Shown here: piece by piece, positions 23,341-62,436 of the stretch
Position numbering within the stretch: position 1 is the first letter of the stretch
Layout: every line of letters starts with the position of its first letter
DNA from: Rhodocyclaceae bacterium
GTDB lineage: Bacteria > Pseudomonadota > Gammaproteobacteria > Burkholderiales > Rhodocyclaceae
Assembly: GCA_028713915.1 (NCBI GenBank)
Contig: JAQTNK010000010.1
Location: 34,598-98,597 of the forward strand
Length of the DNA stretch: 64,000 nucleotides
Direction: 5' to 3'
Notes under the pieces: generated by a model
What the model was told of the DNA's origin: nothing
Databases searched by the model: none
What the model saw: the letters and a program-made list of their open reading frames with translations, nothing else
Position numbers and translations under genes: made by a program

Positions 23341-25422
<2,082 letters not shown>

Positions 25423-39463: not shown

Positions 39464-39604
39464 TCACGGTTCTGCCCGCGACGCCATCGCCTCAAGCAAA
39501 TCGTTCAGCGTCGTCAAGCACGCCTGCATTCGAACAGTGCGTTCCAACATCATCTTGCCTTGCACCATTTCCGCGAAATCAAACCCAATTTCCCTCAAGG
39601 TCAT
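39464..39604 (-). CDS. Small hypothetical protein
   Basis: A 46-residue frame starting MTLREIGFDFAEMVQGKMM, helical in character, 8 bases after the next upstream gene's stop. Not recognised and may not be expressed. Confidence 0.35.
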   Translation of the reverse strand: MTLREIGFDFAEMVQGKMMLERTVRMQACLTTLNDLLEAMASRAEP

Positions 39605-39612
39605 AAGCCAAC

Positions 39613-39981: not shown

Positions 39982-40115
39982 GGCGTATAGAAGATTCAAG
40001 GACCGTGGCGAAGATTCACTCGCTTATTGGTAACGACACCGCACAAGCGCGCTCGCTGACGTATCCAATACTACTCACCCATTGGCCGCTTCGTCAATCA
40101 AATAAGCGACAACTA

Positions 40116-40145: not shown

Positions 40146-40211
40146 TGGCATGGTTTTCGACGTCTGCAATCGGTAGGCCCAGTACTTGGATAATTGACAG
40201 GAGGGATTCGG

Positions 40212-41225
40212 GTGTTGCGTCCATTTCGTTACTTAGCGTTGGTCTCGTTGTGTATTGGGCTTGCCCCGGCTTTCGCTGCACCGGAACTTGAGAAGGTGCG
40301 CACCTATTCGCAAACGAACTACCCTGGGTTCGTCCAGTTCGTGGCCAAGGAAACCGGGCTGTTTGCGAAATACGGGATCGACCCCGAATTGCGCTTCTTC
40401 CCAAGCGGCGCCCCCATCGTTCAAACAGCCGCCACGAAGGAGTGGGACATTGCCTTTCTCGGCGCCCCGCCGGCGGTGATAGGTGGGTCCGCCCTAGGCA
40501 TTGTCACCATTGGACAGATATCCGACGAAGCGCCCTGGCATCAGCTCTACGGTCGTCCAGACTATGTCGCCAAGGTACTGGCCAATCCCGCGTCGCTCCG
40601 GGGCGCCAAGATATTTGTGACCACGCTGTCGACAGGTCATTACATGGTCGAGGCCTGCCTGCGCAAGTTCGGACTCGGCACGAACGATGTTTCAATCATC
40701 CCGAGCGAGCAGAGCGCCACCTTGTCCGCGTTCGCGTCCGGCCAGGGAGATCTGGCGCAAGTGTGGCCACCGTTCACGGCGTCCCTGAAGGAGCGCGGTG
40801 ACCGCGTCCTGTGCGATGGCGAGCAAGCCGGGATCAGCGTTGGCACGGTTTGGGTCGCGACCAAGGACTTCGCCGCGCGGCGCCCCGACCTGGTGGTTCG
40901 ATGGCTCAAGGCAAACGGCGACGCCGTCAAGTGGATCAAGCAGGACCCGGCACGCACAACGCAGATGTACCGGAAGTTCATGGCCCTCGCCGGGCAGTCT
41001 TTCACGGAGGCGACCGTCAAGGAGGTCGTCGCCATCGTCATGAAATCCAACACCCTGGAAGAGCAGTTGAAGTACATGACAGCCCCCGCCGGCGGCGAGC
41101 CGCCCATTGCCCGCATGTACGAGGGAATCGCGCAGTTCTTCATCCGCAATGGCCGGATGAAGTCAGTGCCCGACATTCCCGCGATGATCGACGCCTCGTT
41201 CCTGCTGAAGGCGGTACAGCCCTAG
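40212..41225 (+). CDS. Sulfonate/nitrate-type ABC transporter substrate-binding protein
   Basis: A 337-residue periplasmic protein of the SsuA/TauA/NrtA (NMT1-like) family, with a signal peptide ending at APAFAAP. The two-lobe fold shows in FVQFVAKETGLFAKYGIDPELRFF and in the EWDIAFLGAPPAVIGG region. GTG 40212, 6-7 bases after AGGAGGG, is a better start than TTG 40194. The ligand is not readable from sequence. Its position beside a coenzyme M gene cluster suggests a sulfonate such as taurine, sulfoacetate or CoM (inference). Confidence 0.85.
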   Translation: MLRPFRYLALVSLCIGLAPAFAAPELEKVRTYSQTNYPGFVQFVAKETGLFAKYGIDPELRFFPSGAPIVQTAATKEWDIAFLGAPPAVIGGSALGIVTIGQISDEAPWHQLYGRPDYVAKVLANPASLRGAKIFVTTLSTGHYMVEACLRKFGLGTNDVSIIPSEQSATLSAFASGQGDLAQVWPPFTASLKERGDRVLCDGEQAGISVGTVWVATKDFAARRPDLVVRWLKANGDAVKWIKQDPARTTQMYRKFMALAGQSFTEATVKEVVAIVMKSNTLEEQLKYMTAPAGGEPPIARMYEGIAQFFIRNGRMKSVPDIPAMIDASFLLKAVQP

Positions 41226-41235
41226 GACGCCGGAG

Positions 41236-42117
41236 GTGGAGCGCGCGGGCGTGGGAATCATCGAGGCTGACCTCGTCATGGACGCTGGCCCGTGCGAACG
41301 GGACATCCGGTCTGCAGCCAGAGGCAATGGCATCCGCTTCCAAAACGTGTCGATGTCGTTCGGCGGCAACCGCGGCGGGCACCCGACGCTTGCGGTGGAC
41401 GACTTCTCCCTCGAAGTCGCCGAGAACGAGTTCCTGGTGATTGTCGGACCGTCGGGCTGCGGCAAGAGCACCCTTCTTGCGATGGCCGGCGGCTTGACGC
41501 AGCCGACGACCGGACGTCTCTCTCTCGGCGACGAACCGATCGTGAAGCCCGGTCCGGACAAAGCCATCGTTTTCCAGACCTTCTCGCTCTTTCCCTGGAT
41601 GACGGTCATCGACAACATCGAGTTCGGCATGCGCCTCAACGGCGTGAGCCCGGCCGAGCGCCAGCGCCGCATCGACTATTACCTTCCCATCATCGGCCTC
41701 AAGGGCTTCGAGGATCATTACCCGAAACAGCTGTCCGGCGGCATGCAACAGCGCGTGGCCATCGCGCGCTGCCTCGTGCTGCGCCCGCGCCTGCTGCTGA
41801 TGGACGAACCGTTTGCAGCACTCGATGCGCAAAATAGAACCGTGATGCAGGAGGAACTGGTGCGGGTCTGGTCCGCGCACCGCCCAACTGTCATCTTCGT
41901 TACCCATAGCGTCGAAGAGGCGGTGTTCCTGGCCGACCGCATCGTGGTCATGACGCGCCGGCCTGGGCGCATCAAAGACGTGATAGACGTGCGCGACACG
42001 ACCGGAGCGCAGCATTGGCGCGCGGCGCCGCTGGACCAGGTAATGCGGCGCAGCGACTTCCAGGATCTGCGCGGTCGGGTATGGGACCTGATCCGCGACG
42101 AGATCGTCATTGAATAG
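41236..42117 (+). CDS. Sulfonate/nitrate-type ABC transporter ATP-binding protein
   Basis: A 293-residue ATPase of the SsuB/TauB/NrtD group, with Walker A GPSGCGKST, signature LSGGMQQR, Walker B LLLMDEPFAALD and the switch His in VTHSVEEAV. An N-terminal extension of about 35 residues precedes the first strand. Start GTG 41236 lies 10 bases after the binding-protein stop. Confidence 0.92.
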   Translation: MERAGVGIIEADLVMDAGPCERDIRSAARGNGIRFQNVSMSFGGNRGGHPTLAVDDFSLEVAENEFLVIVGPSGCGKSTLLAMAGGLTQPTTGRLSLGDEPIVKPGPDKAIVFQTFSLFPWMTVIDNIEFGMRLNGVSPAERQRRIDYYLPIIGLKGFEDHYPKQLSGGMQQRVAIARCLVLRPRLLLMDEPFAALDAQNRTVMQEELVRVWSAHRPTVIFVTHSVEEAVFLADRIVVMTRRPGRIKDVIDVRDTTGAQHWRAAPLDQVMRRSDFQDLRGRVWDLIRDEIVIE

Positions 42118-42895
42118 GCGCACGACCTACTTGCGGGTTGGACAACTCGGTTTCGGGGCAGTCAGCCTCGGCGTGATTCTGTTCGCCTGGTGGCAGGTAA
42201 CCGCAAACGGTATTGTCAGCGAGTTTCTGCTTCCTGCACCCGCCGCGGTATTTGAAGCCGCGCAGAGACTGAGCGCCGGCTATCTCGGTTCATCGCTAAC
42301 GGCACATCTCGTCGCCAGCTTGTCCGTCGTGCTGAGCGGCTATATTGCTGCCGTGTTGATCGGCGTGCCGCTCGGCATCCTCATGGCATGGTCGCGGCCG
42401 GTCGATATTGCGATGGGACCGCTCGTTGCCATCCTGCGGCCGATACCACCGCCGGCTTGGATACCGCTGGCGATCCTCTGGTTCGGGATCGACCTGCCCG
42501 GCAAGACATTCATCGTCTTCGTCTCTTCGATCACTCCCTGCCTGATCAATGCCTACGTGGCGATCAAGGAAGTTCCGGCGAACCTGATCAACGCCGCGCG
42601 CATGCTCGGGGCCGGCAACGCCTCGCTGCTGTTCCGTGTCGCGATCCCGGCGGGGCTGCCGATGATTGCGAACGGCCTGCGCATCGCCCTGGGCAGCGCT
42701 TGGGCAACGGTCGTCGCGGCGGAACTCGTGGTCGCAACCGCTGGCTTCGGCTTCGTCATCATGAGTGGCTACCGCAACATCGAATCCGACATCATGGCTG
42801 CGGGCATGATCGCCGTCGCGGTGACCGGCTTCATCATGAACCTGCTTTTCCGCGAAGTGGAAAAGCGCGTCATCCCGTGGGCCGAACATGAGTGA
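42110..42895 (+). CDS. ABC transporter permease 1 (SsuC/TauC-like)
   Basis: A 261-residue inner-membrane permease with about six helices and the EAA loop (NLINAARMLGAGNASLLFRVAIPAG region) that docks to the ATPase. Start TTG 42110 overlaps the ATPase stop by 8 bases. Together with the next gene it makes a heterodimeric channel. Confidence 0.9.
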   Translation: MNRRTTYLRVGQLGFGAVSLGVILFAWWQVTANGIVSEFLLPAPAAVFEAAQRLSAGYLGSSLTAHLVASLSVVLSGYIAAVLIGVPLGILMAWSRPVDIAMGPLVAILRPIPPPAWIPLAILWFGIDLPGKTFIVFVSSITPCLINAYVAIKEVPANLINAARMLGAGNASLLFRVAIPAGLPMIANGLRIALGSAWATVVAAELVVATAGFGFVIMSGYRNIESDIMAAGMIAVAVTGFIMNLLFREVEKRVIPWAEHE

Positions 42896-43694
42896 ACGGC
42901 GGCCGGACCCGACGCGGCTGCGGCGGTCTTCGCCGCAGCAAGCCGGGCTAGCAATGGCCGGTGTGGCGGCCTGGATATTGGTATGGTGGGGCGTCGTGTC
43001 GGTGTTCAAGGTGCCGCCGGAGTTCTTGCCGAGTCCTTGGCAGGTCGCGAAGAAGATCCTTTGGCTTGCCGCCAACGACATCGGCGAGGGCAAGCTTTGG
43101 CTTCATCTGGGGTGGAGCCTATTGCGCTTCCTGTCGGGATTTATGCTCGCCATGGCGCTCGGCGTCCCCCTCGGACTGTTGATGGGCCATTTCCGTCCGG
43201 CCCGGGAGATGCTCAATCCCTTGTTCGAGATGCTTCGCAACGTGCCGCCGATTGCCTGGGCACCGTTTTCGCTCCTGTGGTTCGGCGCAAGTTTCGGCTC
43301 TCAAGCCTTCGTCATTTTCGTCGCAGCGTTCCCGCCGATATTGATGAACACTCAGCAAGGCGTCCGATTGACGGACAAAGGGCTGATCAGCGCAGCGCGC
43401 ATGCTCGGCGCGGGATCGTTCACGCTGCTGTTCGAAATCGGCTTGCCGGCTGCCGCGCCGGCGGTGATTGCCGGACTCCGGATCGGACTCGCCAACGGCT
43501 GGCTGGCCTTGGTGGGTGCGGAAATCATCGCCGGGCCGGGCGCACTTACCGGCTTGGGTTTCCTGGTCCTCGTCGGCCAGCAGAATCTTCAGGCAACCAT
43601 CACCATCGGCGCCATGGCGCTGATCGGCATCATAGGAGCCTCGCTGGACTATGCTCTATGTCGGCTCGAAGCCAGCGTAGCGAGAGGCGCGTAG
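42888..43694 (+). CDS. ABC transporter permease 2 (SsuC/TauC-like)
   Basis: A 268-residue permease, paralogous to the previous gene (GLISAARMLGAGSFTLLFEI EAA loop). It overlaps the previous gene by 8 bases. Most sulfonate importers use one permease gene as a homodimer, so two different permeases are unusual. It converges with the regulator gene at 43717. Confidence 0.9.
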   Translation: MSERRPDPTRLRRSSPQQAGLAMAGVAAWILVWWGVVSVFKVPPEFLPSPWQVAKKILWLAANDIGEGKLWLHLGWSLLRFLSGFMLAMALGVPLGLLMGHFRPAREMLNPLFEMLRNVPPIAWAPFSLLWFGASFGSQAFVIFVAAFPPILMNTQQGVRLTDKGLISAARMLGAGSFTLLFEIGLPAAAPAVIAGLRIGLANGWLALVGAEIIAGPGALTGLGFLVLVGQQNLQATITIGAMALIGIIGASLDYALCRLEASVARGA

Positions 43695-43716
43695 CGTTGC
43701 GGAGCGCCCCTGCGCT

Positions 43717-44556
43717 TCAAGCCGCCGCGCAAACCTCCTGAGGCTGGAACAAACCGGGGGCACACCGATCCGGCAACTGCACATGCGGATGACTGTACAT
43801 CCCGCCGAGCGCCACGGCGCCGCTGAGCCGATGCAGGTCATAGTGACAAACAATGGTCACCTGCGGATAACGGAGAAGCATTCCGTTAAGGAGGCTTTCA
43901 TATTCCATCATGCGCTCGACGCCCGGCGCGCCCGACAAGTACCACGTCATTTCACCCGAGATAAGAATCTTGTCGTAACCGCTCGCGCGCCAGCTAAGAA
44001 TCGCGGCTTCCATGAAGTCGATCATGCGCTCGGGCACGAAGGTGCCGCTTCGCAAATAGGACTCGGCCGGAACCAGGAGCTTGAGCAGGCCGTCTGCGGC
44101 AAGGCGGTCGGGATCCCAGCCGCCGGAGCGGAGCCGCGCGAGTACATCTTCTCGCGCGTTCTCGTCGTGAATATAAAGGAACGGAGCGCCAGCCTTCAAA
44201 TGATCGGCAACATAGGGGCGGAATAGCCGCCACAGTTCGTCGCGATCATGAAAATAGAGCGCGATGTGATGCACCTCCCCGGCCGCCATTGCGCGTCCCG
44301 CGGGCAGTGTTTCCTCGACACGAGGCGACCTCGCCGTACGCAGCCTTGCCGTCGCCGTCGCAGCGACCGCTTCCGGGGAACGCTCGACGACAATCAGAAA
44401 TTTGTTGAGGTCGCTCTTCTGAAAACGCCGCTCGTGGCGCATGCCGACGCGGACGCACGGAAGCTTCTCCAGCTTGGTCCAGCGCCGAAGCGATGTCTTG
44501 CTGACGTTGAGGTACCGTGCGGCCTCTTCGATGGTGAGAAGTTGGTCTTCTGACAT
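43717..44556 (-). CDS. DcmR-like regulator: MerR/excisionase HTH plus MEDS domain
   Basis: A 279-residue protein. The N-terminal helix-turn-helix (LTIEEAARYLNVSKTSLRRW, residues about 6-25) is of the excisionase/MerR type. After a linker, a MEDS domain (about 100-265; starts HHIALYFHDRDELWRLF, contains FLYIHDENAREDVL and KILISGEMTWYL) follows. MEDS domains were defined in DcmR, the dichloromethane dehalogenase regulator, and in methanogen/methylotroph sensors. It ends the 16-gene CoM cluster and faces the ABC operon, so it is the best candidate local regulator. ATG 44556 is chosen over the upstream 44691 because the HTH follows it directly. Confidence 0.85.
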   Translation of the reverse strand: MSEDQLLTIEEAARYLNVSKTSLRRWTKLEKLPCVRVGMRHERRFQKSDLNKFLIVVERSPEAVAATATARLRTARSPRVEETLPAGRAMAAGEVHHIALYFHDRDELWRLFRPYVADHLKAGAPFLYIHDENAREDVLARLRSGGWDPDRLAADGLLKLLVPAESYLRSGTFVPERMIDFMEAAILSWRASGYDKILISGEMTWYLSGAPGVERMMEYESLLNGMLLRYPQVTIVCHYDLHRLSGAVALGGMYSHPHVQLPDRCAPGLFQPQEVCAAA

Positions 44557-44578
44557 CTGATCCACCCCACAAGAGCTT

Positions 44579-44596
44579 AGATTAAATAGGTAATCT
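44579..44596. promoter_or_regulatory. Dyad AGATTA-N6-TAATCT upstream of the regulator
   Basis: A perfect 6-bp inverted repeat 23 bases upstream of the regulator start, with a further GATTAGAT at 44611-44618. It lies in the AT-rich 202-base gap between panD and the regulator and is a candidate autoregulatory operator. Confidence 0.45.
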
Positions 44597-44758
44597 AAAC
44601 ATCTCTCGATGATTAGATCGCACATGGGGCGGCCCGGTTTTGCCGATATCCCATATGGGCCATAGTATAGCAAAGTTGTGCAGTGCGTCAAAGTCGTATT
44701 TCATCTAACGATACACCATACCTATGCGGGATCGAAGCGCTAAGCCATTCTGTGACTT

Positions 44759-45139
44759 CTAGGCCGCCTGGATCGAAATCCCGTTGCGCATATTAACGAC
44801 GCGGTTCCTGGCATCGACGTACACCAGCGTCGGCTCGAACCGCGCGAATTCGATCTCGCTGATGCTTGCGTAGGTAGCGATGATCAGCAGATCGCCCGGT
44901 GCCGCCTTGCGGGCCGCCGCACCGTTGACCGAAATCGTGCCGCCGCCGCGCTCGGCGCGAATGGCATAGGTGGTAAACCGTTCGCCGTTGTTGACGTTGT
45001 AGATGTCGATCTGCTGGTACTCGGCGATGTCCGCCGCGTCCAGCAGATTTTCATCGATGGCGCAGGATCCCTCGTAGTGAAGTTCCGCTTGGGTCACCGT
45101 CACCCGGTGCAATTTCGACTTCAGCATGGTTCGTTGCAT
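44759..45139 (-). CDS. panD: Aspartate 1-decarboxylase proenzyme (PanD) within the CoM cluster
   Basis: A 126-residue pyruvoyl enzyme with the self-cleavage site Gly24-Ser25 in [10 protein letters not shown] and the conserved [16 protein letters not shown] and SVNGAAAR segments. PanD makes beta-alanine for pantothenate and CoA. It is 29 bases downstream of the CoA-disulfide-reductase-like gene, in the same run as CoM biosynthesis. No other pan genes are nearby. It could be the housekeeping enzyme, or it could decarboxylate L-cysteate, an aspartate analogue, to taurine (inference). Confidence 0.9.
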
Positions 45140-45168
45140 GGTGACCCTCGGTATCTTCGCAAGCCGGC

Positions 45169-46533
45169 TCAGGCGGCCTTGGGAACCCGCGTCAGCTGCT
45201 TCACGCCGACGCTGGCCGCAATCAAGATCGGGTCATACACCGGCGCGAACGGCGGCGCATAAGACAAATCGAGGCCTTCGACCTGCGCCAGGGTCATGCC
45301 CGCATGAAGGGCGGTGGCGAACACGTCGATACGTTTGGCCACGGCTTCGCCGCCGATCATCTGCGCACCCAGCAGGCGCCCGGTGCCGCGCTCCGCATAG
45401 ACGACGGTGGTAATCGGCTTGTCGCCGGGGTAGTTGCGCGCGCGCGTGTGGTGATGCGACACGGCCGTGACGGCGGCAATGCCGGCGGCGGCGATGTCCG
45501 CCTCGCCCAGACCCGTGCGCGCCACTTCGAGATCGAAAAGCTTGAAGCCGGCAGTGCCGACGATGCCGCCGAAACGCTCGTCCGCCCCGGCCGCGTTTGC
45601 GCCGGCGACCTTGCCCTGCTTGTTGGCTGTGGTCCCCAACGGAATCCAGACCGGACGCCCCAGCACGAGATGCCGTGCCTGCGCGCAATCGCCGGCGGCA
45701 AAGACGTCGGCCGCGCTGGTGTGCATGCCATCGTCAACCGCGATCGCGCCGGTCTCGCCGAGCGTGATGCCAGCCGCCGTCGCCAATTCCACGTTGGCCC
45801 GCGCGCCGACCGAGACGATCACCAGTTGCCCGTTGACCGAGCCGGAATCCGTGCGCACCACGAGATCCGCACCCGCGCGCTCGACCGACTGGATGCCGAC
45901 GCCGGTCTGCACGTCGATCCCGTTGCGCTCGAGTTCCTGTTTCGCTTCCGCGATGATGGCCGGCGCGAATCCGGGCAGCACGCAGGCGGCCTTCTCGATC
46001 ACCGACACTTCGATTCCCAGGCCATGCAGGGCGTCGGCCATTTCCAGGCCGATATATCCTGCCCCGACGATCACTGCCTTCTTCACGATCGTGGCGCGAA
46101 GATACGCCTTGATGGCCTGTGCGTCCTCCAACTCCCGCACCACGAACACCCCCGGCGCATCCAGGCCCGGCAGCCGCGGCCGCGCCGCCGCCGCGCCGGT
46201 GGCGAGCACCAGCTTGTCCCAAGTCAGTTCGTACTCGCGACCGCTGTCGAGTTCGCGCACCTTGACCGTCTTGCGCTCCAGGTCGATCGACCGCACATCC
46301 TGCCGCGTGCGCACGTCGATCCCGCGTTCCTGACGAGCGCTGGCGGCGTCGAGAATGACAAGATCATCGGTCTCGCGCTTCGGATCGCCGATGTTGTATG
46401 GCATGCCGCAGGCGCTGTACGATATGTCCCGCCCGCGATGCAGCACCACGACCTCGATCCCGGGATCGCGGCGGCGCACCTGACTCGCCGCGCTCATGCC
46501 AGCGGCAACCCCCCCAATGACGACGACTCGCAT
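45169..46533 (-). CDS. CoA-disulfide-reductase-like FAD/NAD(P)H oxidoreductase
   Basis: A 454-residue flavoprotein of the single-cysteine disulfide reductase family. It has an FAD-binding [18 protein letters not shown] and a redox-active Cys42 in [12 protein letters not shown]. An NAD(P)H-binding [13 protein letters not shown] follows. The C-terminal region [16 protein letters not shown] has the tyrosines seen in CoA-disulfide reductase. In this cluster a likely substrate is a CoM-containing disulfide or persulfide, that is, the reductive last step or recycling of CoM (inference). A strong hairpin separates it from the aldehyde dehydrogenase gene. Confidence 0.82.
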
Positions 46534-46580
46534 AGCTCAGCTCCTGTGATTCCGCCTTTTGGCGCGGAAGATGATTCATT

Positions 46581-46606
46581 GCGGCCGCGGCGAACGCCGC
46601 GGCCGC
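46581..46606 (-). terminator. Strong intercistronic hairpin
   Basis: GCGGCCGCGGC pairs with GCCGCGGCCGC (11 bp) around a 4-base loop, in the 86-base gap between two co-directional cluster genes. No T-run follows, so it may be an attenuator or an mRNA-processing or stability element instead of a terminator. Confidence 0.5.
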
Positions 46607-46619
46607 GGTGCCAATCGGA

Positions 46620-48056: not shown

Positions 48057-48061
48057 GATGA

Positions 48062-50116
48062 CTACCTTTCTATGCGCATGCGCGCATCCACGATGGTGAA
48101 ACAATCCCCGCTCGCCACGAGCGGGTTCAAATCCAATTCAAGGCACCATGGCGCGCGCGCTATCCACGCAGACAGCCGCGCCACGAGTTCGGCCAGGGCC
48201 TGACGATCGACCGCCGGCGTACCGCGCAGTCCGTCGAGCAAGCGCTGGCCGCGCAATTCGGCGAAGGCGCGCAGCGCCTCGCTCGGGCCGATGGGTGCGA
48301 GGCGCAGAGCGACATCGCCCAAGGCTTCAGTCCAGATGCCGCCCAGTCCGCACATCACCAGCGGGCCGAAGGTGGCATCGCGCACCGCCCCCAGGGCGAT
48401 CTCGACGCCAGCCGCGACCTGCTGCTGCACCAGCGCAGCACCGGGGCCGAGCGTGCGCGACCATTCGAAGACAACACGGCGCACGGCATTCGCGTCGGCG
48501 AGGCCGAGGCGAACCGCCCCGGCCTCCGTCTTGTGCAGCAATCCGGGACGTATCGCCTTCATGACAACGGGAAACCCGAGTTCGCTCGCCGCGGCGATCG
48601 CGCCGTCGACGTCCTCGACGATGCGCCACGGCGCCACCGGCAAGCCCCACGAACTCAGCAGGGAGAAGACTTGATCCGGCGCCAGCCAGCCATCGGCCGG
48701 TACGTCGGCCGGCGGTGGCAGCGGCGGGCCGACGGCGGGCACGGCTTCCGGCTCGATCAGCCGGCACTTGGCCAGCGTCCGCGCCGTCCGCGCCGCCCAT
48801 TCGTGACACGGTATGCCGGCGGCGACAAGCTTCTGCCGCAACGGTTCGCCTGCCGCCGACGCCACCCAGCAGACATGCACCGGCTTCCTGACGCCACGTT
48901 CCACGGCCGCGCGCGACTCGGCAATCACCGCATCGACGACGCGCGGGTCCAGCGCCGAGCGCTGCAGAAGCACAGGGATCACGGCGTCGATCTCGTCGCT
49001 GGCGAGCAGCGCGCGCAAGCTCTCGCCGTACATCTCGGGAAAGCGATTCCATTGCGTGGTGACATCGACGGGATTGGCGGCGGAGCCGTGCGGCGGAAGA
49101 TGCCGCGCGATGTCGGCGCGCAGTTCGGCCGACAGTGCCGGCACTTCCAGGCCCTCGGCCTCAAGCAGGTCGGCAAGCTCGACGCCCGTGCCGCCGGAGT
49201 TGGTGATGACGGCGACGCGGCGCCCGCGCAGCGGCCCCTGGCGATCCAGCGCGGCGGCAACTTCGAACAGCGTAAAGCCGTCCTCGACCACCACGGCTCC
49301 CGCCTGGCGCAGCACGGCGCGCGTCACCGGAAAGTCCTGCGCATGCGCCGCCGTGTGGCTGGCCGCGGCGCGCATGCCCGCACCGCTGCGCCCGGTCTTC
49401 AGGATCACCACCGGCTTGGCGGGCGTCACCGCCCGCAACGCGGCGATGAACGCCGGGCCGTCGCTGAGCGACTCCAGCACCAGCGCGATGACGCGCGTCT
49501 CCGGATCGGCGCCGAAGAAGCGAACCGCGTCCGCTTCGGCAATGTCCGCCTTATTGCCGCCGGCCAGTACCTTGGCGAAACCGATGGCGCCCTCTTGCGA
49601 GCGCGACACCGCGGCCATGCCGTAGGCGCCGCTTTGAGTAAACAGCGAAACGCCGCCCGCGGCCGGCAAACCCAAGGCCAGCGAAGCATTCAAGCCACTG
49701 CGTGCGTTGATCAGGCCGAAACAGTTGGGGCCGACCAGCCGCACGCCGCCGGCCCGCGCCACGCGCACAATTTCCGCTTCCAGCGCGGCGCCTTGCGGGC
49801 CGGTTTCCGCGAAGCCGCCGCTGATGATCACCGCCACGGCAACCTTGGCCCGCGCGCAGTCTGCGATTACGCCGGGCACCGTTGCCGGCGGCGTGACCAC
49901 GATCGCCAGGTCGATCATGTCGGCAAGGTCGCAGATTTGCGGGTAGGCGCGGCAGCCGCGAATCTCCGTCGCCGTCGGGTGGATGGCCACAATCTCGGCG
50001 CCGCCGCCGGCGAGGAGATTGTCGATGATGACGCGCCCCACCTTGCCCGCCTCGTTCGACGCGCCGACCAGGGCGATGCGCCGCGGCGAAAAAGCGGCCT
50101 GGCCCCAGCGGTTCAT
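48062..50116 (-). CDS. ADP-forming acyl-CoA synthetase (fused subunits)
   Basis: A 684-residue single-chain acetate-CoA ligase (ADP-forming) type protein. The N-terminal CoA-binding Rossmann domain (SNEAGKVGRVIIDNLLAGG, residues 20-38) comes first. The succinyl-CoA-ligase-like domain with a candidate phospho-His segment (AASHTAAHAQ) follows. A C-terminal ATP-grasp domain is at about residues 460-680 (FPVVMKAIRPGLLHKTEAGAV). It would form an acyl-CoA from ATP and a carboxylate. Next to the acylating aldehyde dehydrogenase it could convert sulfoacetate to sulfoacetyl-CoA and thence to sulfoacetaldehyde (inference). It overlaps the PLP gene by 4 bases. Confidence 0.85.
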   Translation of the reverse strand: MNRWGQAAFSPRRIALVGASNEAGKVGRVIIDNLLAGGGAEIVAIHPTATEIRGCRAYPQICDLADMIDLAIVVTPPATVPGVIADCARAKVAVAVIISGGFAETGPQGAALEAEIVRVARAGGVRLVGPNCFGLINARSGLNASLALGLPAAGGVSLFTQSGAYGMAAVSRSQEGAIGFAKVLAGGNKADIAEADAVRFFGADPETRVIALVLESLSDGPAFIAALRAVTPAKPVVILKTGRSGAGMRAAASHTAAHAQDFPVTRAVLRQAGAVVVEDGFTLFEVAAALDRQGPLRGRRVAVITNSGGTGVELADLLEAEGLEVPALSAELRADIARHLPPHGSAANPVDVTTQWNRFPEMYGESLRALLASDEIDAVIPVLLQRSALDPRVVDAVIAESRAAVERGVRKPVHVCWVASAAGEPLRQKLVAAGIPCHEWAARTARTLAKCRLIEPEAVPAVGPPLPPPADVPADGWLAPDQVFSLLSSWGLPVAPWRIVEDVDGAIAAASELGFPVVMKAIRPGLLHKTEAGAVRLGLADANAVRRVVFEWSRTLGPGAALVQQQVAAGVEIALGAVRDATFGPLVMCGLGGIWTEALGDVALRLAPIGPSEALRAFAELRGQRLLDGLRGTPAVDRQALAELVARLSAWIARAPWCLELDLNPLVASGDCFTIVDARMRIER

Positions 50117-52472: not shown

Positions 52473-54004
52473 TACGCTTCCCCGATCAGGTGGCGCGCTG
52501 CCGCCAGCAGGTCGGCGCGCGCGCGCTCATTGCGCTCACCCGCCGACTGCTGCCAAGCCATGCCGATTTCAAGCGCCTTGCGACATTCGGCAATCATTGC
52601 GGACATCGGCGCTTCGGCAGCACCGCCCGCGCCAGTGCGCGCCGCGATGGCCGCGCGCGGATCGAGGGCGCGCGCGAGGACGTCGGCGCCGATGCTCACC
52701 TTCCGCCCCAAGGCGGCGTCGGCGGCGCCCGCCACGTCGTCCGGCGTCAGGCTGCCGGCGAGGCGGCGCTCCGCATGCAAGGTCCGGGACAAATGGCCCA
52801 CCAGGCGGTGGGCGGCGCGATAGTCGAGGCCCGCTTCGAGGACCAGCACTTCGGCCAGGTCCGTGGCGAGGACGAAGCTGTTGAGCGTGCGCGCGGCGTT
52901 GTCCGCCGAAAGCGTCAGGCCGCCGAGCGCCGCGCCCAGCACCTCGGCCGCGCCGGCCGCGAGCGCAAGGGCGCGCGGCAGTTCGCCATAGGCCAGCATG
53001 CGGTTGTCCATCTGGCCGCTGGGCGTGCGGCCGGACGCCGCCAGCGCCGCCTGAATGCCAATGGCCTGATTGGCAGTTGCGCGGACATACGCAAGCGAGA
53101 AGGGATTCTTCTTCTGCGGCATGATCTTGCTCGCGCGCGCCTGGCCGTCGCCGAGTTCCACCAGGCCGAACTCGACGGTGGCGAACACCATCAGGTCTTC
53201 GGCCAGCCGGTCGAGATTCACTAGTCCCGCGACGACGACCGCCATGCCCTCGATCGGCAAGTCCGCTTGCCACATCGCGTCGCGTGCATGCGGCACCAGC
53301 CGGCGAAAGCCGAGCAACTCCGCAACGCGCTGCCGGTCGGGCGCCAGGCGCGAGCCATTGGTGCTGCCGCAGCCGGAAGGGCTGCGGTCGACGCGCGCAT
53401 AGAAGGACTGTGCCCGCTCGATGTCGCGCAGCACCGGATAGAGGAAGCCCAATAGATAGTGGCCGAAGCTCGTGGGCTGGCCGGCCTGGAGGTAGGTGTA
53501 ATCCGCGACCAGTGCGTGCCGGTGCTGCTCGGCCATATCGACGAGTTTGCTGCCGATGTCCGCCAGCGCCCGTACCAGCCCGAGAGTCTGCTCACGCACG
53601 ACGAGATGGAATGCCGTAGTCGTCGCCTCGCGCCGCGCCCGCCCCGCGCCTAGCCAGCCCGCGGCGGGCGTGCGGCGCATCAGCCAGGCTTCGCGGTTGG
53701 TGTAGAGGTCGCCGCAGGCGGCGTCGAGTGGCAGCGCCGAAGGTCGCTCCTGCAGTTCAAGCAGTGCCGCCAGCAGCGGTCGACCGACGTCGCGGGCGAC
53801 GACGCCGGCGTCGATCAAGCCGAGCGCATAGGCGATATCGACCAATCCCATGGCTTCGGCGAGCGGGCGCTGATTGCGCAATTCCTCGGCGAAGGCGTGG
53901 GCGACGAGTTCCGCCGCCGGCGCCGCCGCAAGACGTCCACCGACTTCGAGCGCATCGTGCGCACTTGCCATCCCCACCTCGGCGGCGAGTTCACTACTTC
54001 GCAC
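52472..54004 (-). CDS. Aspartase/fumarase-superfamily lyase 1 (argininosuccinate-lyase-like), CoM biosynthesis
   Basis: About 510 residues. It resembles argininosuccinate lyase ([17 protein letters not shown], signature loop [14 protein letters not shown] at about 291-304), but the usual YTHLQ motif reads YTYLQ (about 169-173). This replaces a catalytic-site His, so arginine metabolism is unlikely. Together with lyase 2 it fits the phosphate-elimination step of bacterial CoM synthesis (phosphosulfolactate to sulfoacrylate). The start GTG 54004 is preceded by GGAGG and overlaps the comA stop by 11 bases; ATG 53971 is the alternative. Confidence 0.83.
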
Positions 54005-54866
54005 TGTAGGCCTCCACGGTGCGCGCACCTTCGATCTGGTCCGGATCCCACTCGCCAGTCCGCGCCATGGCATCGGCGATCGGCTTCAAGGTTTCGAAAC
54101 GCAGCCCGAGCCGCAGCGCCTCCAGGGCCAGCACGCGCTCGGGCGCGATATTGCCCAGGCCGACGTTGCAGCCGAAGCGCTCGACCAGTGCGGTCTGCTG
54201 ATTCTTGAGCGGCGCTTCCCAGATCAGGCGATCGACTTTGTCGCCCATGATCCTGGCAAAGGTTTCGAGTGCTGCGCAATCGATCCGGCCCTCGTCGTCG
54301 AAGACTCCGACCCCCTGCCCGCATTCGCGTCCTTCGACGATGACCCAATGCGCGCCGGCTTCCAGGTCGTGCAAGGCTTCGATCGCGAGCTGCTCGGCAC
54401 CGGGCTGTGCGCGCGGATCCTTCTTGCCGACTTCGGTAATCGGCACGAGACCGGCCGCAATGGCGCAGTCGATCACCCGCCGGCGCCGGAACGGGGGGAG
54501 CTCGATGGTGCCGTCGGATATCTCCACGGCCGTGAAGCCGAGGTCGATGGCCAGCGACATGTAGTCGCGACAGTGGTGCTGGAGTATCGCTGCCTCGAAC
54601 AGCGTCCCGCCTGGGCAGGCGAGAACCTTGCGCGCGACGATCATTTCGAGCTTGCGCGCCAGGATTTCCGGCGGCACGAAGACCGAGGTACCGAAACTGA
54701 GCTTCCAGATGTCGATGTAGTCGCCGGCCATTTCGAGGACGTCCGCCGTCGCATGGAGACCGAGTCCGGTGTCGATCACCATGGTCAAGCCGGTGGATCG
54801 CGGCGCCATCGTTCGAGTGCGCTGGCGCTCGGCGATCACGGCAAGGTCCCCCCAGTGGCTACGCAT
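53994..54866 (-). CDS. comA: Phosphosulfolactate synthase (ComA/XcbB-like)
   Basis: A 290-residue TIM-barrel enzyme that adds sulfite to phosphoenolpyruvate to give (2R)-phosphosulfolactate, the first step of CoM synthesis. Recognisable family segments are TMVIDTGLG (about 27-35), [14 protein letters not shown] (about 47-60), [14 protein letters not shown] and [16 protein letters not shown]. It is an archaeal-type enzyme, rare in bacteria except in alkene/epoxide-metabolising loci. It overlaps both neighbours (8 and 11 bases), showing tight coupling to the 309-aa gene and lyase 1. Confidence 0.92.
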
Positions 54867-55788
54867 GGTCGTCGACCTCCGTCAGTTCGCGCAGCGCTCG
54901 CTCCACCATCGCAAGGTCGGAGCCCCACGGCACCGTCATGACCTGGCCCTCGCGCTCGATGTCGAATTCGAGCAGGCAGCACTTCAGCAGCGTCGGCTCG
55001 CTGCGCTTGCCCGCGATCTGGCGCGGGCACATCTCGACGCGCGGCGGCTCGTCGCCGTAGTAATGGCGGTGAAACTGGAGGCTGCGCTCGCAGCCGACCA
55101 ACACCCAGTCGCGCCGCTCGGCCGGCCGTTCGTCGAGAAAGCTGACCGGCGCACCGAGATCGTCCAGCCCACCCGAGCGACATGGCACCAGGTACTCGCG
55201 CGCCGAACACTGGCGGGCAAGCTCGGTGAGTTCGATGCGTTCCAGTTCGACGCGGATGGGCGGAAGATCGGCATAGCTCAGCACGCGCTTCACCAGATCG
55301 TAGAGCTTCGGCGGATCCGGCGGCGCGACTTCCACGACGCGAAACACAAACGGGGCGGGGTGGTGGATGAAATTCACATGGTCGTAGAGGCCCTCGACGA
55401 TCAGGCAGCGATCCGGTCCGACGCCATGCCGGTAAGCCAGATCCGCCAGCGCCGATCGATTGCCGCAGTCAGTCTGCGGATCTTTGACGAAGACGCAGAC
55501 ATCAGGCAGCGCCAGCACCTCGACCGCCGTAATCGGGGAGAACAGCGGTTCGTCCGACGTGCGTGTAATCGCGATCACGGCGTGGGGCATGTCTTCAAAG
55601 CGCGTGTCAGCACCGTTCCCCGCCCGCAGGACGATGAAGTCGCTGCGCCGGTAAGCTTCGCGCCCGAGAAAATGCGCAGTGATCGCTTCCGCCGTCATCG
55701 GGCCGGCATACCACTGCACGCTCACCCGCCGATACGGCAGCGGTACGACATTGAGCTGCTCTCCGAGCCTGGGCGCTTGACTCAACAT
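54859..55788 (-). CDS. Cysteine-rich protein of unknown function in the CoM cluster
   Basis: A 309-residue soluble protein not recognised as any family. It has nine cysteines (98, 108, 128, 194, 203, 233, 254, 270, 271), including a late CC pair, and a His-rich FHRHYY near 239. There is no signal peptide or membrane helix. It overlaps comA by 8 bases, so it is probably made in step with it. A role in metal binding or in sulfur transfer for the thiolation step is conceivable but unproved. The ATG (MLSQAPRLG) follows an AGGGAG ribosome-binding site. Confidence 0.8.
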   Translation of the reverse strand: MLSQAPRLGEQLNVVPLPYRRVSVQWYAGPMTAEAITAHFLGREAYRRSDFIVLRAGNGADTRFEDMPHAVIAITRTSDEPLFSPITAVEVLALPDVCVFVKDPQTDCGNRSALADLAYRHGVGPDRCLIVEGLYDHVNFIHHPAPFVFRVVEVAPPDPPKLYDLVKRVLSYADLPPIRVELERIELTELARQCSAREYLVPCRSGGLDDLGAPVSFLDERPAERRDWVLVGCERSLQFHRHYYGDEPPRVEMCPRQIAGKRSEPTLLKCCLLEFDIEREGQVMTVPWGSDLAMVERALRELTEVDDHA

Positions 55789-55807
55789 TTTTCGTCTCCC
55801 TCAACCT

Positions 55808-56653
55808 TCAAACGTGAGCGACCGGAAAGCTGCGCTTGCGATCCACCGGCCGCAGTTCCTTGACATGAACCTGGAGCGGGTCGAGCTTGCGGATGATGGC
55901 TACGCTGGCCGCGTCCGGCAGGGGAATCGCGGCGACAGTTTCGGCAACGCGCAACTCAAACCCGGTGCTCTCCTTGACCTCGTTGAGATCCACGTCGGGA
56001 TACAGGGCCAGCAGGCGCAGATGCCCTTCCTGGTCGAAGTCGAAATAGCCGAGTTCGGTAATCACCGAATCCGGACCGGCACCGCGATGCTTGAACTCGC
56101 TGCGCGGCCGCCCGTCGGCGCTGCGATGGCCGAGGCTGGTGACGAAATCGCAGCGCTCGACGAGGCGGTATTGGCGCTTGCCGTCCTTGCCGGGAGGACT
56201 CCGGTGCGCGGGCGTCCACAGCGTGACCTTATCGACGTCGCAAGAGAGATTGCAGCCGCCGCCGCCGCCCGGCAGCTTGAGCTTCAGACGGTCTTCGCCC
56301 AGGCGGCTGACGTTGGCATTGCCCCAACGGTCTATCTGCAAGCCGGAGAGGAACATCCGGTCCATGCGTCCCGATGCCGCCAGGTCGAACAACTCCTCGA
56401 TGTCGACGGAACATTCGGCGCCGCGGTCGAGCACCCAATCGTTGGACGTCGGCGTCAGGAACGGCGGCGTCGGATTGAGGCCGTAGGTGGCGCCCGCCAC
56501 GAAAACCAGATCCGGCGCATGCGTCTGTTTCGCCAGATGCAGGGCGAGCTGGATCAGGGGCGAGCCGAAACCATGAAAAACCAAATCGCCATTCCTGACG
56601 GTGCGCGCGAGGTTATAGATCATCGCCTCGCCGAGCGTACATGTCGCGCTCAT
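55808..56653 (-). CDS. CoA-transferase subunit beta (glutaconate-CoA-transferase/IpdB-like)
   Basis: A 281-residue family I CoA-transferase small subunit with SGLQIDRWGNANVSRLG and the glycine tract LPGGGGGCNLSC. It pairs with the alpha gene just upstream (4-base overlap). Similar subunits include IpdB and glutaconate CoA-transferase B. In this cluster it may activate acetoacetate or another beta-keto acid with CoA, or act on a sulfonated acid (inference). Confidence 0.83.
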   Translation of the reverse strand: MSATCTLGEAMIYNLARTVRNGDLVFHGFGSPLIQLALHLAKQTHAPDLVFVAGATYGLNPTPPFLTPTSNDWVLDRGAECSVDIEELFDLAASGRMDRMFLSGLQIDRWGNANVSRLGEDRLKLKLPGGGGGCNLSCDVDKVTLWTPAHRSPPGKDGKRQYRLVERCDFVTSLGHRSADGRPRSEFKHRGAGPDSVITELGYFDFDQEGHLRLLALYPDVDLNEVKESTGFELRVAETVAAIPLPDAASVAIIRKLDPLQVHVKELRPVDRKRSFPVAHV

Positions 56654-57594
56654 GCTCCAACCTCCTCGTAAAGTTTCATCCAGGCATCGGTACCTTCACT
56701 CCAACTCGCAAGCCGCTCGCGCGTCGCGCTGCCACCGATCGCTTCGAGATAGTCGGCATGGCTCTCGGCGGCGAAGACAAAGGGATCGAGGTATTGGGTC
56801 TTGAAGGCATCCGCACCCGCGCTTGCCGCCGCGTAGTACGCCGCCGTGTGAGGGCGATCGTAGGCATACATCGGATAGCAGGCGGTCGGATGGGCACCGA
56901 ACGGCACCTCGCTCACGGCGGCGACGTAGAAGTAGGGCACGTTGGCGCCGCCCATGTCGCACAACTCGCGGTTGGAAACGATCTTCTCGACGGTGGCGAT
57001 GACTTTCTTGGAGGCCCGCGCGAACAGCAGATCAGCCACCGGCGGACCTTCGATGCGCAGGTTGCCGTGGGCATCTCCGTACTGCGCGTGAATCACGGCA
57101 ACATCCGGTTGCAGCGCCGGCACCAGCAGCAACTCATCCCCGGTGTAGGGACAGATCATCTTTTTGTACTCGGGATGCAGGCCTTCGAAGCTCGTGCCGC
57201 GCACCGACCGCATCGGCATGAACGGAAGACCGAAGGCGGCCGCGCGCAGTTGCTGCACCACCGTGTAGCAGCAGCCGTCTGCGACTTCAACCGCGCCCGA
57301 CTCGCAGGCGCGCCGATAGTTCGGCGCCATGCCGAAGTCCTGCTCGAAGCCGACGTAACTCTCCGCCGACTTCGCGACCAGGCCTGCGCCGCAAAGCAGG
57401 TCGACATCGATGCCGTGCGCCGAGCCGACAACCTGGAGCCCCTTGCGACCGGCGCGCACGAGCGCGCGCAATGCGGCGATGGGTTCCCGCGACGAAAGCC
57501 CGCCGCCGATGGCAAGCCAGTCTCCGTCTTTCACGTGCGCGACGAGCTGGTCGAGACCCACCCGCTTGTCGCTGTTGGGATAGACGCCGCTCAT
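56650..57594 (-). CDS. CoA-transferase subunit alpha (glutaconate-CoA-transferase/IpdA-like)
   Basis: A 314-residue subunit with [16 protein letters not shown] near residues 27-42 (CoA-binding glycine loop) and [20 protein letters not shown] (about 160-179). ATG 57594 overlaps the S-HPCDH stop by 4 bases. The long frame upstream of it is antisense/out-of-frame to the dehydrogenase. Acts with the beta subunit as a heteromer. Confidence 0.83.
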
Positions 57595-58358
57595 ATCGCC
57601 GTCATGCCGCCATCTACGGCCAGAATCGACCCGACGCAATAGCTTGACGCGTCCGACAGCAGGAAGGCGACAGCCTCGGCAATCTCTTCCGCCTTGCCGA
57701 AGCGGCCGAGCGGATACTTGGCGAGCCGTCGGGCCATCGCCTCGGCGCTGGTGTCGCTGCCCACCAGGAAATGACCCATCGCCGTTTCGCCCACGGTTCC
57801 CGGACAAACGCAGTTCACGCGAATGCCGTGCTTCGCGTATTCGGCCGCCATCTGGCGCGTGAGGTTCACGACTGCACCCTTGACTGCGCAGTAAGCCGCC
57901 ATGGTGGGAATGCCGACGACGCCGGCCACCGAGCCGACGTTGACGATCGCACCGTGCTTCTGCTCGATCATGCCCGGCAGCACGGCGCGCGACGGCAGGT
58001 AGGTGCCGATGACGTTGACGTCCCACATGGCCTGCCAGCTTGCCGGTGAGCTGTCGTGAACACTGCCGAAGCCCGCGATGCCGGCGTTGTTGAACAAGCC
58101 GTCGATGCCGCCCATCGCCGTGCGCGCCGCGGCCACCGCCGCGTTTACCGCTGCCTCGTCGGTGACATTCACGCCGAAGCCGAAAGCCTTGCCGCCGTCG
58201 GCCGTCAGTGATTTCGCCGAAGCTGTCGCCTTGGCCCCATCGAGATCCAACAGCGCCACTGCCGCGCCTTCACGCACCAGGACTTTTGCCGTCATGAAGC
58301 CGATGCCGGCCGCGCCGCCGGTGATGATGATCTTGCGTCCCGCCAATTTACCTGACAT
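57591..58358 (-). CDS. xecE: 2-(S)-hydroxypropyl-CoM dehydrogenase
   Basis: A 255-residue short-chain dehydrogenase with NAD-binding GGAAGIG and catalytic Ser143, Tyr156 and Lys160. It keeps Arg211 and Lys214 (ARRLAKYP), the residues known to bind the CoM sulfonate in the S-specific enzyme of Xanthobacter. It oxidises 2-(S)-hydroxypropyl-CoM to 2-ketopropyl-CoM. ATG 58358 has the ribosome-binding site AGGAGGA. 57 bases after the R-enzyme gene. Confidence 0.93.
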
Positions 58359-58415
58359 ATATTCCTCCTAGTGCTCAGATTGATATTTACGACTGTTCCC
58401 TGCCAAGCGCTTTTC

Positions 58416-60811
<2,396 letters not shown>

Positions 60812-60841
60812 TCATTGGATCTTGTCTAGGCATTGCACCGC

Positions 60842-61039
60842 TCATCCGCCACAGCAGGGACAACCCTTGCCGTGCGGTTTTTCCCACGGATGTTCCAGGA
60901 TCGGTGCGTCCGGCTTGAGGGCCGCTTCGTGGCTGCCGCACTTTCCGCACACCCAAACCTCGGGTGGGCGCATGCCGGCGAATACCACGCTACGGAACGC
61001 ATGCCCGCAATTCGGACATTGCAATTCGAATACGGGCAT
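60842..61039 (-). CDS. Small zinc-ribbon (FmdB-like) protein
   Basis: A 65-residue protein. Cys8-X2-Cys11 and Cys31-X2-Cys34 form an FmdB/CxxC zinc ribbon (FELQCPNCGHAF, WVCGKCGS). The extreme C-terminus adds a third cysteine-rich patch, CPCCGG, after a His/Lys stretch. It lies between the transferase and 2-KPCC genes. The role is unknown; regulation, metallochaperoning of zinc to XecA, or sulfur handling are possible. Confidence 0.78.
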   Translation of the reverse strand: MPVFELQCPNCGHAFRSVVFAGMRPPEVWVCGKCGSHEAALKPDAPILEHPWEKPHGKGCPCCGG

Positions 61040-61125
61040 ACTTTCTCCTCTCGAAGAATGATCGAATCGAGGGCGCCACCTAATGGGTGACTTGCAGGTC
61101 GCGCCCCGACCGTCTCTCCTGTTTC

Positions 61126-62259
61126 TTATGCAGCCTTGGCCGGCAACTTGCCGGCAGCCAGTTCGGCACGAACGATCTTCGCGCCCTCGACCATGGCGTG
61201 CAGCTTGTCCTTGGCGATGTAGCGCTGCAGCAGAATCAGACCGCAGTCGGTGGTGATGCCGAGACGATCCGCCGGCACGTACTGGAGCAACTTGCGGATG
61301 CGCTCCGCGACGTCCTCGCCCGTTTCCGTGATCGTGCTCTTGACGTCGATCACGCCCGCCCAGAAATCGACGTTGGCCGGCAGCGGATGCTGCTTGATGA
61401 CGTCGAGGCCGGACAAGTCGTCGGAGCGGCGACCGCAGTTCTCGAGATTCAGGACGCTGATGTTTGCTTCATAAGCCTTAGGAATGATCGAGGCGGTTGC
61501 CGACGGCGCCTTGCCCTTGCGCTTGGTCAGATCGTAGACGTCGCCGGAGCTGGCCGTCTCGTCCGGCTGGTAGGCCGGCGTGCCGCCCCAGTTGCCCCAG
61601 CAGACGTGCACGATGATCTTGGCCTTGTTGATCCCTTCGACGGCGCGGTTGAACGCCTCGATGGCATAGTCTTCAAAGAAGTACGGCCAGGTGAATTCAT
61701 CGAGTTGGATGAAGTCGGCGCCGATCGCTTCGACTTCCTTGAGGTCGTCGTTGATGGCAGCGGCGATGGCCATGGCGCGTTCGCGGCTGGACTTGTAATG
61801 CAGATCGTTGGTGCACTGGGCGAGCACCTGAACCCCGGTGTATTGAACCTTGATCGGCTTTTGTGTTGCTTTACGCAGCGCTTTGGCCTGTTCCACCATC
61901 AGCGCGCCGTGGCGCTTGATTTCCTGCGTCACCGTGCCGGAATGGAGACGGCTGTAGATGGGGAAGCCGAGGTGGCCGCCCTTCAGATCGTAGCCGAGCC
62001 GCCGCATGTAGTAATAGACCGCTTGGTCGGCGTAGTTGTCGCCATGAACGCGGCCATCCGAAATGATGTCGAGCCCCGCTTCCTCCTGGTCGCGCACCAT
62101 AGCGCCGATCACGTCTTCCAGCGCTTCCTGCCACATCGCGTCGGGCGGCTGCTGGTCTCCCGTAAAGTGCCGCGCGAATGCGGCATCCCACCACCGCGGA
62201 TTCGGATAATTTCCCACCATGCTGGTTGGAATAATGATGTCCTTACTTCCGATTTTCAT
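61126..62259 (-). CDS. xecA: Epoxyalkane:coenzyme M transferase
   Basis: A 377-residue MetE-like zinc enzyme that opens epoxides with the CoM thiolate to give 2-hydroxyalkyl-CoM. Zinc ligands are visible as His218 and Cys220 (IIVHVCWGNWGG) and Cys339 (TTDCGL). Length and pattern match the Xanthobacter enzyme and EtnE of ethene/vinyl chloride degraders. A strong ribosome-binding site (GGAGGAG) precedes ATG 62259. It is the first gene of the - strand run. Confidence 0.94.
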   Translation of the reverse strand: MKIGSKDIIIPTSMVGNYPNPRWWDAAFARHFTGDQQPPDAMWQEALEDVIGAMVRDQEEAGLDIISDGRVHGDNYADQAVYYYMRRLGYDLKGGHLGFPIYSRLHSGTVTQEIKRHGALMVEQAKALRKATQKPIKVQYTGVQVLAQCTNDLHYKSSRERAMAIAAAINDDLKEVEAIGADFIQLDEFTWPYFFEDYAIEAFNRAVEGINKAKIIVHVCWGNWGGTPAYQPDETASSGDVYDLTKRKGKAPSATASIIPKAYEANISVLNLENCGRRSDDLSGLDVIKQHPLPANVDFWAGVIDVKSTITETGEDVAERIRKLLQYVPADRLGITTDCGLILLQRYIAKDKLHAMVEGAKIVRAELAAGKLPAKAA

Positions 62260-62406: not shown

Positions 62407-62436
62407 ATACTAGGTCGCACATATCCTCAGTGTCAA
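62407..62436 (-). promoter_or_regulatory. Probable promoter of the epoxide/CoM operon
   Basis: On the - strand TTGACA (62436-62431) and TAGTAT (62412-62407) are 18 bases apart. The predicted leader is about 140 bases. Within it, ACCACCAC (62336-62343) and GTGGTGGT (62395-62402) could pair. Confidence 0.5.

Follow-up and report, generated by a model that had tools for sequence, protein, structure and literature searches.

A 64,000-nucleotide stretch of contig JAQTNK010000010.1 (the window), from the draft genome of a Rhodocyclaceae bacterium (assembly GCA_028713915.1, designated G000), was found from its open reading frames (ORFs) and family profile matches to carry a minus-strand run of 17 genes, extending from 62259 to 43717, that is faced by a four-gene importer on the plus strand. 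The run probably encodes (we put the probability at roughly 0.8) coenzyme M (CoM) synthesis together with a CoM-dependent epoxide carboxylation system of the type found in Xanthobacter autotrophicus Py2, likely acquired horizontally, which would convert epoxides of the propylene oxide type to acetoacetate. It is likely that the host uses or detoxifies small epoxides. An earlier sequence-only reading of the window had proposed the same combination of pathways, and the family, PDB and Py2 matches supported it.

The gene order was XecA, a zinc-ribbon protein, XecC, XecD, XecE, the CoA-transferase-like pair CoTa and CoTb, XcbA, ComA, XcbC, XcbD and XcbE, followed by an ADP-forming CoA ligase, a SauS-like dehydrogenase, a CoA-disulfide-reductase-like (CoADR-like) flavoprotein, PanD and a MEDS-domain regulator with a helix-turn-helix (HTH). 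All of the genes listed in the sequence-only reading were recovered, as ORFs with family matches, where it had placed them, but its count of 16 had missed the zinc-ribbon ORF (60842-61039). Its description of the genes as mostly overlapping did not hold, since with the gene starts chosen here, on which the counts depend, seven of the 16 junctions overlapped, four had gaps of 5-29 nt and five had gaps of 57-199 nt.

Epoxide carboxylation and CoM synthesis

The genes of the two pathways, all on the minus strand, are:

61126..62259, minus: XecA, epoxyalkane:CoM transferase; 77% identity to the Py2 lyase; H218, C220, C339
59165..60760 (start probably near 60733), minus: XecC, 2-ketopropyl-CoM oxidoreductase/carboxylase (2-KPCC); 1mo9, 808 bits; motifs GGSCPHNACVPHH and FLNPTHF
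58416..59168, minus: XecD, 2-hydroxypropyl-CoM dehydrogenase, R type; 2cfc, 320 bits; R152, R196
57591..58358, minus: XecE, 2-hydroxypropyl-CoM dehydrogenase, S type; 4gh5, 301 bits; R211, K214
54859..55788, minus: XcbA family (DUF7714); NF052538, 469 bits, cut-off 150
53994..54866, minus: ComA, phosphosulfolactate synthase; TIGR03849, 299 bits, cut-off 280
52472..53971, minus: XcbC, fumarase superfamily (start set from an identical 499-residue database protein, P0001); NF052535, 661 bits, cut-off 575
51117..52472, minus: XcbD, fumarase superfamily; NF052536, 615 bits, cut-off 600
50113..51159, minus: XcbE, pyridoxal phosphate (PLP) enzyme of CoM synthesis; NF052537, 480 bits, cut-off 450

All four epoxide carboxylation enzymes that had been named were indeed encoded in the run. 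The best PDB match of XecC was 2-oxopropyl-CoM reductase (carboxylating), 1mo9, over residues 13-529, and the only other chains at E ≤ 1e-30 were two variants of the same protein and a mercuric reductase at 115 bits. XecC retained the active-site residues of 2-KPCC, with the Cys pair in GGSCPHNAC and the Phe and His in FLNPTHF; we take the latter two to be Phe501 and His506, which presumably replace the usual His-Glu. The best match of XecD was 2-(R)-hydroxypropyl-CoM dehydrogenase (2cfc), and that of XecE, 4gh5, is labelled in the PDB merely as a short-chain dehydrogenase/reductase (SDR) and is assumed here to be the S-specific enzyme. Both proteins had the Ser-Tyr-Lys triad, and R152 and R196 of XecD and R211 and K214 of XecE are presumed to bind the sulfonate. 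XecA was identical at 77% of positions to the annotated 2-hydroxypropyl-CoM lyase of Py2, and its His-Cys-Cys set, presumably the zinc site, was present in all 38 aligned rows. The XecC motif, the XecD and XecE residues and the XecA set are together what a system of the Py2 type would be expected to have.

The CoM synthesis set had likewise been described correctly as ComA, two fumarase-superfamily lyases and a PLP enzyme; these four proteins and XcbA all passed their NCBIfam cut-offs. XcbA had no PDB match at E ≤ 0.001; its structure was predicted with a mean pLDDT (predicted local distance difference test) of 93.9 from 37 sequences, and five Cys residues (203, 233, 254, 270 and 271) were invariant.

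ComA would join sulfite and phosphoenolpyruvate, and XcbC, XcbD and XcbE would complete CoM, with XcbA taking some part. XecA would open the epoxide ring with CoM, and XecD and XecE would each oxidize one enantiomer of the product, giving 2-ketopropyl-CoM. Using NADPH and CO2, XecC would then cleave 2-ketopropyl-CoM, releasing CoM and acetoacetate, which the ADP-forming ligase probably converts to a CoA thioester. Elsewhere in the window, about 33 kb from the run, a BktB-type beta-ketothiolase (9390-10574) could split acetoacetyl-CoA.

Residue 506 of XecC and the CoA-transferase-like pair

For comparison, the best 80 of the 88 XcbC relatives in genome_contigs were kept as loci. Of 141 aligned XecC rows, 126 had His and 15 had Tyr at residue 506; the rows comprised the window, 120 database proteins (the window's own protein, P0121, among them) and 20 proteins from loci, with some overlap. 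The co-occurrence with XecD, called by best match at an identity of at least 45%, was scored, with the window excluded, over 86 loci, namely the 80 XcbC loci, five plasmid regions of three strains and L149; the XecC motif was readable in 26 of these. Eleven loci had His and XecD, one had His without XecD (L017, on a 4.2-kb contig), 14 had Tyr and no XecD in the fetched stretch, and none combined Tyr with XecD. Thirteen of the Tyr loci had methanotroph taxon names, the other being L149, and the XecC homologue of Methylohalobius crimeensis (P0194) also had Tyr506. The methanotroph Methylocapsa aurea (L056) retained His506 and XecD, and the window protein is of the His506 type, with XecD. A 51-row tree, made by a quick method, required at least four changes of the residue, counted irrespective of direction. 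The link between residue 506 and XecD is suggestive, because a formal test of the association had two independent pairs only. In an XecC with Tyr506, carboxylation may have been lost or become dispensable.

The two genes between XecE and XcbA are:

56650..57594 (open frame extends further upstream), minus: CoTa, CoA-transferase-fold alpha subunit; PF01144; 1poi_A, 5mzw_A, 6coj_A
55808..56653, minus: CoTb, CoA-transferase-fold beta subunit; Ala at the catalytic Glu position of transferases

The closest PDB entries by sequence were 5mzw and 5n00 in the case of CoTb; for CoTa, 1poi ranked first and 5mzw second. Next came 6con and 6co6, which we take to be IpdAB. The pair had been called a CoA-transferase and has that fold, but the label is doubtful, the catalytic Glu being Ala. 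The column held Glu in three outgroup CoA-transferases, in JS614 and NBB4 and in a Ktedonobacterales locus (L019), and Ala in 41 of the 42 rows of the CoTb alignment, window included; the Ala rows were from records named Proteobacteria, except L042, named Nitrospira. In a larger alignment (Ala in 43 rows, Glu in seven) the tree needed one change, with a support of 95 where long branches meet.

AibA/AibB (5MZX/5MZZ) is a decarboxylase in which Cys56 replaces the transferase Glu, and its activity survives the Cys56Ala mutation (PMC7756340), while in CtfAB a Glu to Ser mutation kills both transferase and hydrolase activity (PMC12400318). Because of these mutants and the Ala of CoTb, a classical transferase mechanism is unlikely, and the pair is predicted to have a function other than that of the family for which it is named. 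Two candidates are disfavoured: a class I CoA-transferase, the beta subunit having lost its catalytic Glu in the window, and a simple copy of the AibAB decarboxylase, since AibB Glu72, the proposed proton source (PMC7756340), corresponded in the alignment to CoTb Asn71, and Ala/Gly fell at the position of Cys56.

Any 2-oxoethyl-CoM derived from ethylene oxide is probably handled in a second, CoA-thioester branch made up of the SauS-like dehydrogenase, CoTa/CoTb and the CoADR-like flavoprotein. A joint reading of these observations is offered tentatively, at what we judge to be short of even odds. In Py2-like CoM-epoxide operons, CoTa/CoTb with the Glu to Ala change may be a new CoA-thioester lyase or decarboxylase, as AibAB and IpdAB are on the same fold, that finishes the C2 branch, for example by releasing CoM or CO2 from the thioester of the SauS-like dehydrogenase. 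One operon would then process ethylene oxide via thioesters and propylene oxide via CO2 fixation, and residue 506 of XecC would have switched repeatedly between His and Tyr in step with the gain or loss of XecD.

Five loci (L039-L042 and L049), including the sponge symbiont Porisulfidus (L040, L041), had XecA, the zinc ribbon, CoTab, XcbA-E and a SauS-like gene, with no XecC, XecD or CoADR match within reach; this small set makes CoTab a candidate for the CoM-release step. A second XecA-like ORF (28-30% identity) preceded CoTa at L005-L008 (Burkholderiales, Rubrivivax), where the fetched stretch had no XecC or SDR match; XecA proper was on the opposite strand in L005-L007.

Accessory genes, host and epoxide source

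The remaining features are:

62407..62436, minus: promoter-like site upstream of XecA, TTGACA-18 nt-TAGTAT; consensus match only
60842..61039, minus: small zinc-ribbon protein, 65 residues; ORF with relatives at other loci
48062..50116, minus: ADP-forming acyl-CoA ligase; TIGR02717, 392 bits, cut-off 567; PF13549, PF13607, PF13380
46620..48104 (start probably near 48056), minus: SauS-like acylating aldehyde dehydrogenase; NF047625, 502 bits, cut-off 600
45169..46533, minus: CoADR-like flavoprotein; TIGR03385, 397 bits, cut-off 579
44759..45139, minus: PanD, the genome's second aspartate decarboxylase; TIGR00223, 160 bits, cut-off 106
43717..44691 (start uncertain), minus: MEDS-domain regulator with HTH; PF14417, 126 bits; PF12728
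40194-41225, plus: SsuA/TauA-like binding protein of the ABC importer; PF09084, PF00005 and PF00528 matches for the importer (40194..43694)
41236-42117, plus: importer ATPase; family profile match
42110-42895 and 42888-43694, plus: two TauC-like permeases of the importer; family profile matches

The promoter-like site is weak, because five such sites were found in the region and shuffled sequences gave a mean of 2.4. Zinc-ribbon relatives occurred in 34 of the 80 loci (37 rows, three loci having two) and adjoined XecA in Py2. The importer does face the run and match sulfonate and taurine NCBIfam models, as the term sulfonate-type importer had implied, but below every cut-off among the matches listed (SsuA model, 104 against 163.5 bits; TauC model, 179 against 342 bits; for the ATPase, the best 25 of 185 families). 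At most it would act like an aliphatic sulfonate/taurine importer, likely bringing in a sulfonate. The MEDS protein is likely a substrate sensor. PanD, likely a support for CoA supply, passed its cut-off and had 82% identity to the genome's other copy, on contig C16, these being the two PanD matches in G000; two were likewise found in the L045 genome. Its inclusion in the cluster was correct, but it is an uncommon part of the set, found near one of the 80 CoM loci (L045), many of which are short.

Alternatively, a sulfonate-catabolism module (sulfoacetate to sulfoacetaldehyde) could be made up of the importer, the CoA ligase and the SauS-like dehydrogenase; it would serve sulfur supply or CoM synthesis and take no part in epoxide breakdown. 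The best NCBIfam matches, which include SsuA/TauA, TauC and SauS, would agree with this, but all of them were below cut-off, and SauS-like and ligase genes recur next to epoxide genes in Proteobacteria and Actinomycetota. We consider such a module quite unlikely.

The host is likely a relative of the Rhodocyclales. The V-PPase at 23344-25422 was 93% identical to a protein of Rhodocyclales bacterium GWA2_65_20, a metagenome-assembled genome (MAG), which agrees with the betaproteobacterial flanks noted earlier, and most of the other named matches listed came from Rhodocyclaceae, Azonexus, Sulfurisoma and Sulfuritalea, the exceptions including a Gammaproteobacteria MAG and an Ignavibacteria MAG. 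The G000 assembly is 99.87% complete in 74 contigs; no 16S was found in it. Horizontal gain of the run is suggested because XcbC is patchy (among 399 genomes sampled from the order, two, G000 and G145, had it above cut-off, and the 12 further members of the genus or family in the sample did not) and because synteny with the same-genus genome G200 ends near 36410. Horizontal gain has also been argued for methanotroph clusters (PMC11507031). Between 36650 and 40190, at the cluster edge and beyond the end of synteny, ferritin-like and sigma-factor genes are followed by DNA of lower GC (0.565 in 38001-40000). The loss of synteny, in a draft assembly, might also indicate a contig foreign to the bin, or a decaying cluster, but the betaproteobacterial housekeeping genes are on the same 114,576-base contig and the translated genes have no internal stop, which makes either very improbable.

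Several observations weigh against the proposal of a CoM-dependent carboxylation operon, 1) the SauS-like, ligase, CoADR-like and importer proteins score under the cut-offs of the families for which they are named, 2) transcription as one operon is deduced from the layout, and the wider gaps fall at five junctions, 3) the host assignment is based on a single housekeeping protein, the V-PPase, and 4) G000 had no match to PF02332 (soluble di-iron monooxygenase, SDIMO), PF02461 (particulate methane monooxygenase, pMMO) or PF00067 (P450), other epoxide-forming enzymes not having been searched for. The same searches were positive in 6/12 (PF02332) and 4/11 (PF02461) of the genomes covered, and P450 matched in 7/14 control genomes. 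The genomic SDIMO or pMMO monooxygenase of an alkene-growth cluster was thus not found in the draft, from which a plasmid may be missing. Either the monooxygenase is on a plasmid absent from the assembly, or the epoxide is made by an enzyme outside the search or is taken up.

The lack of an alkene monooxygenase could also mean that the cluster serves epoxyethane detoxification, as proposed for M. crimeensis, in which epoxides formed by fortuitous co-oxidation would be disposed of as acetyl-CoA, any carboxylation being a side effect; the SauS-like, CoADR-like and CoTab genes are common to methanotroph clusters. However, the window has both enantiomer-type dehydrogenases and His506, where M. crimeensis P0194 has Tyr, and G000 has no match to methane monooxygenase, the epoxide source proposed in that organism. 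Detoxification of this kind is therefore regarded as unlikely, and carboxylation of propylene-oxide-type epoxides as the preferred function.

Comparison with known systems

CoM synthesis genes were also found outside epoxide clusters. In five Chloroflexota loci (L028, L032, L034, L054, L061), with no XecA or CoTab within the fetched stretch, XcbA-ComA-XcbC adjoined homologues of MtaA/CmuA-family methylcobamide:CoM methyltransferases and a RACo corrinoid activator; XcbD and XcbE were also present in L032, L034 and L054, and FolD and COX1 in L034. This suggests that CoM may have a second bacterial use as acceptor in corrinoid methyl transfer. Counting against it, the scanned MtaA-like proteins reached at best 210 bits against a cut-off of 244, and the XcbE-like proteins 396 and 398 against 450. 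The part of PMC10418091 consulted does not use the words "CoM biosynthesis". Six further loci (L053, L058, L060, L063, L064, L079), in records named Deltaproteobacteria, Alphaproteobacteria, Marinimicrobia and Chloroflexi, had complete or partial XcbA/ComA/XcbC/D/E sets and no epoxide genes within the fetched stretch, some contigs being short; the L079 set adjoined a molybdopterin dehydrogenase and an amidase. At L057, L059, L067, L068, L075, L077 and L078 (Heimdallarchaeota, Saprospiraceae, Verrucomicrobiales and others by record name) ComA was next to an XcbC-like lyase (35-46% identity) without XcbD/E matches, perhaps another sulfonate pathway.

The cluster had been described as lying outside the classic host, which holds for this genome but had precedents: CoM-epoxide clusters have been described in methanotrophs, with top matches in HGW-Betaproteobacteria-11, Burkholderiales and Rhodocyclales (PMC11507031), a marine Halieaceae strain has a Py2-like cluster (PMC6440738), and betaproteobacterial relatives were among the XcbC loci. 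Nor is the expanded module new, because the third cluster of Py2 pXAUT01 has nearly the same order and published clusters (PMC11507031, PMC8727900) have much the same content; the etn cluster gene list of PMC8727900 holds most of the accessory genes (SsuA/B/C, CoADR, two-component CoA-transferase, acyl-CoA synthetase, ACDH, MEDS). No discussion of the CoTb Glu loss, the XecC 506 split or the Chloroflexota CoM clusters was found in the PMC texts searched, most subscription papers being outside their scope.

The M. crimeensis epoxyethane/CoM cluster, which is raised by ethylene, resembles the window in having EtnE, one SDR, a CoA-transferase pair, CoM genes, a sulfoacetaldehyde dehydrogenase, flavoproteins and MEDS (PMC11507031). 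It differs in the Tyr506 of its XecC homologue and in having no second SDR among its 13 listed genes (same source). The Mycolicibacterium/Nocardioides etn clusters (PMC8727900; L129-L131) share CoADR, CoTa/b, acyl-CoA synthetase, MEDS and XcbA-E with the window, and L129 and L130 a SauS-like aldehyde dehydrogenase. Unlike the window they include a monooxygenase, and their CoTb keeps Glu. Their proteins are 30-54% identical to those of the window, apart from the SauS-like protein, for which the identity to the JS614 and NBB4 (pMYCCH.01) aldehyde dehydrogenases reaches 66-67%.

The loci closest in content among the best 80 were L010, L011 and L045, which, with Py2 pXAUT01, largely share the gene order of the run. 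The Betaproteobacteria MAG REEB268 (L011) and HGW-Betaproteobacteria-11 (L045) have XecA/C/D/E, CoTab, XcbA-E, ligase, SauS-like, CoADR-like and MEDS genes, joined at L045 by PanD and an importer permease. However, XecC-XecD is on the opposite strand in L045, L011 has no PanD or importer within reach, and both genomes hold SDIMO genes (that of L045 also PF02461), which the window's genome does not.

In Py2, the third cluster (Xaut_5062-5075; 283485-298690) reads importer-CoADR-CoA ligase-XcbD-XcbC-ComA-XcbA-CoTb-CoTa-SDR-SDR-XecC, a core order nearly the same as in the window, but its XecC is truncated and it has no XcbE, SauS, PanD or MEDS match. Two other clusters, Xaut_4864-4876 and 5047-5056, carry XecA-zinc ribbon-XecC-XecD-XecE and XcbA-E, and a methane/phenol/toluene-type hydroxylase is nearby. 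The comparison makes testable the role of the conserved CoA-transferase-like pair, residue 506 as a possible natural carboxylation/reduction switch in XecC and the contribution of XcbA, which has no close solved fold among those found, to CoM synthesis. The window adds a compact Py2-type system from a betaproteobacterium in which no alkene monooxygenase is evident, holding every gene once in a single run where Py2 has several clusters.

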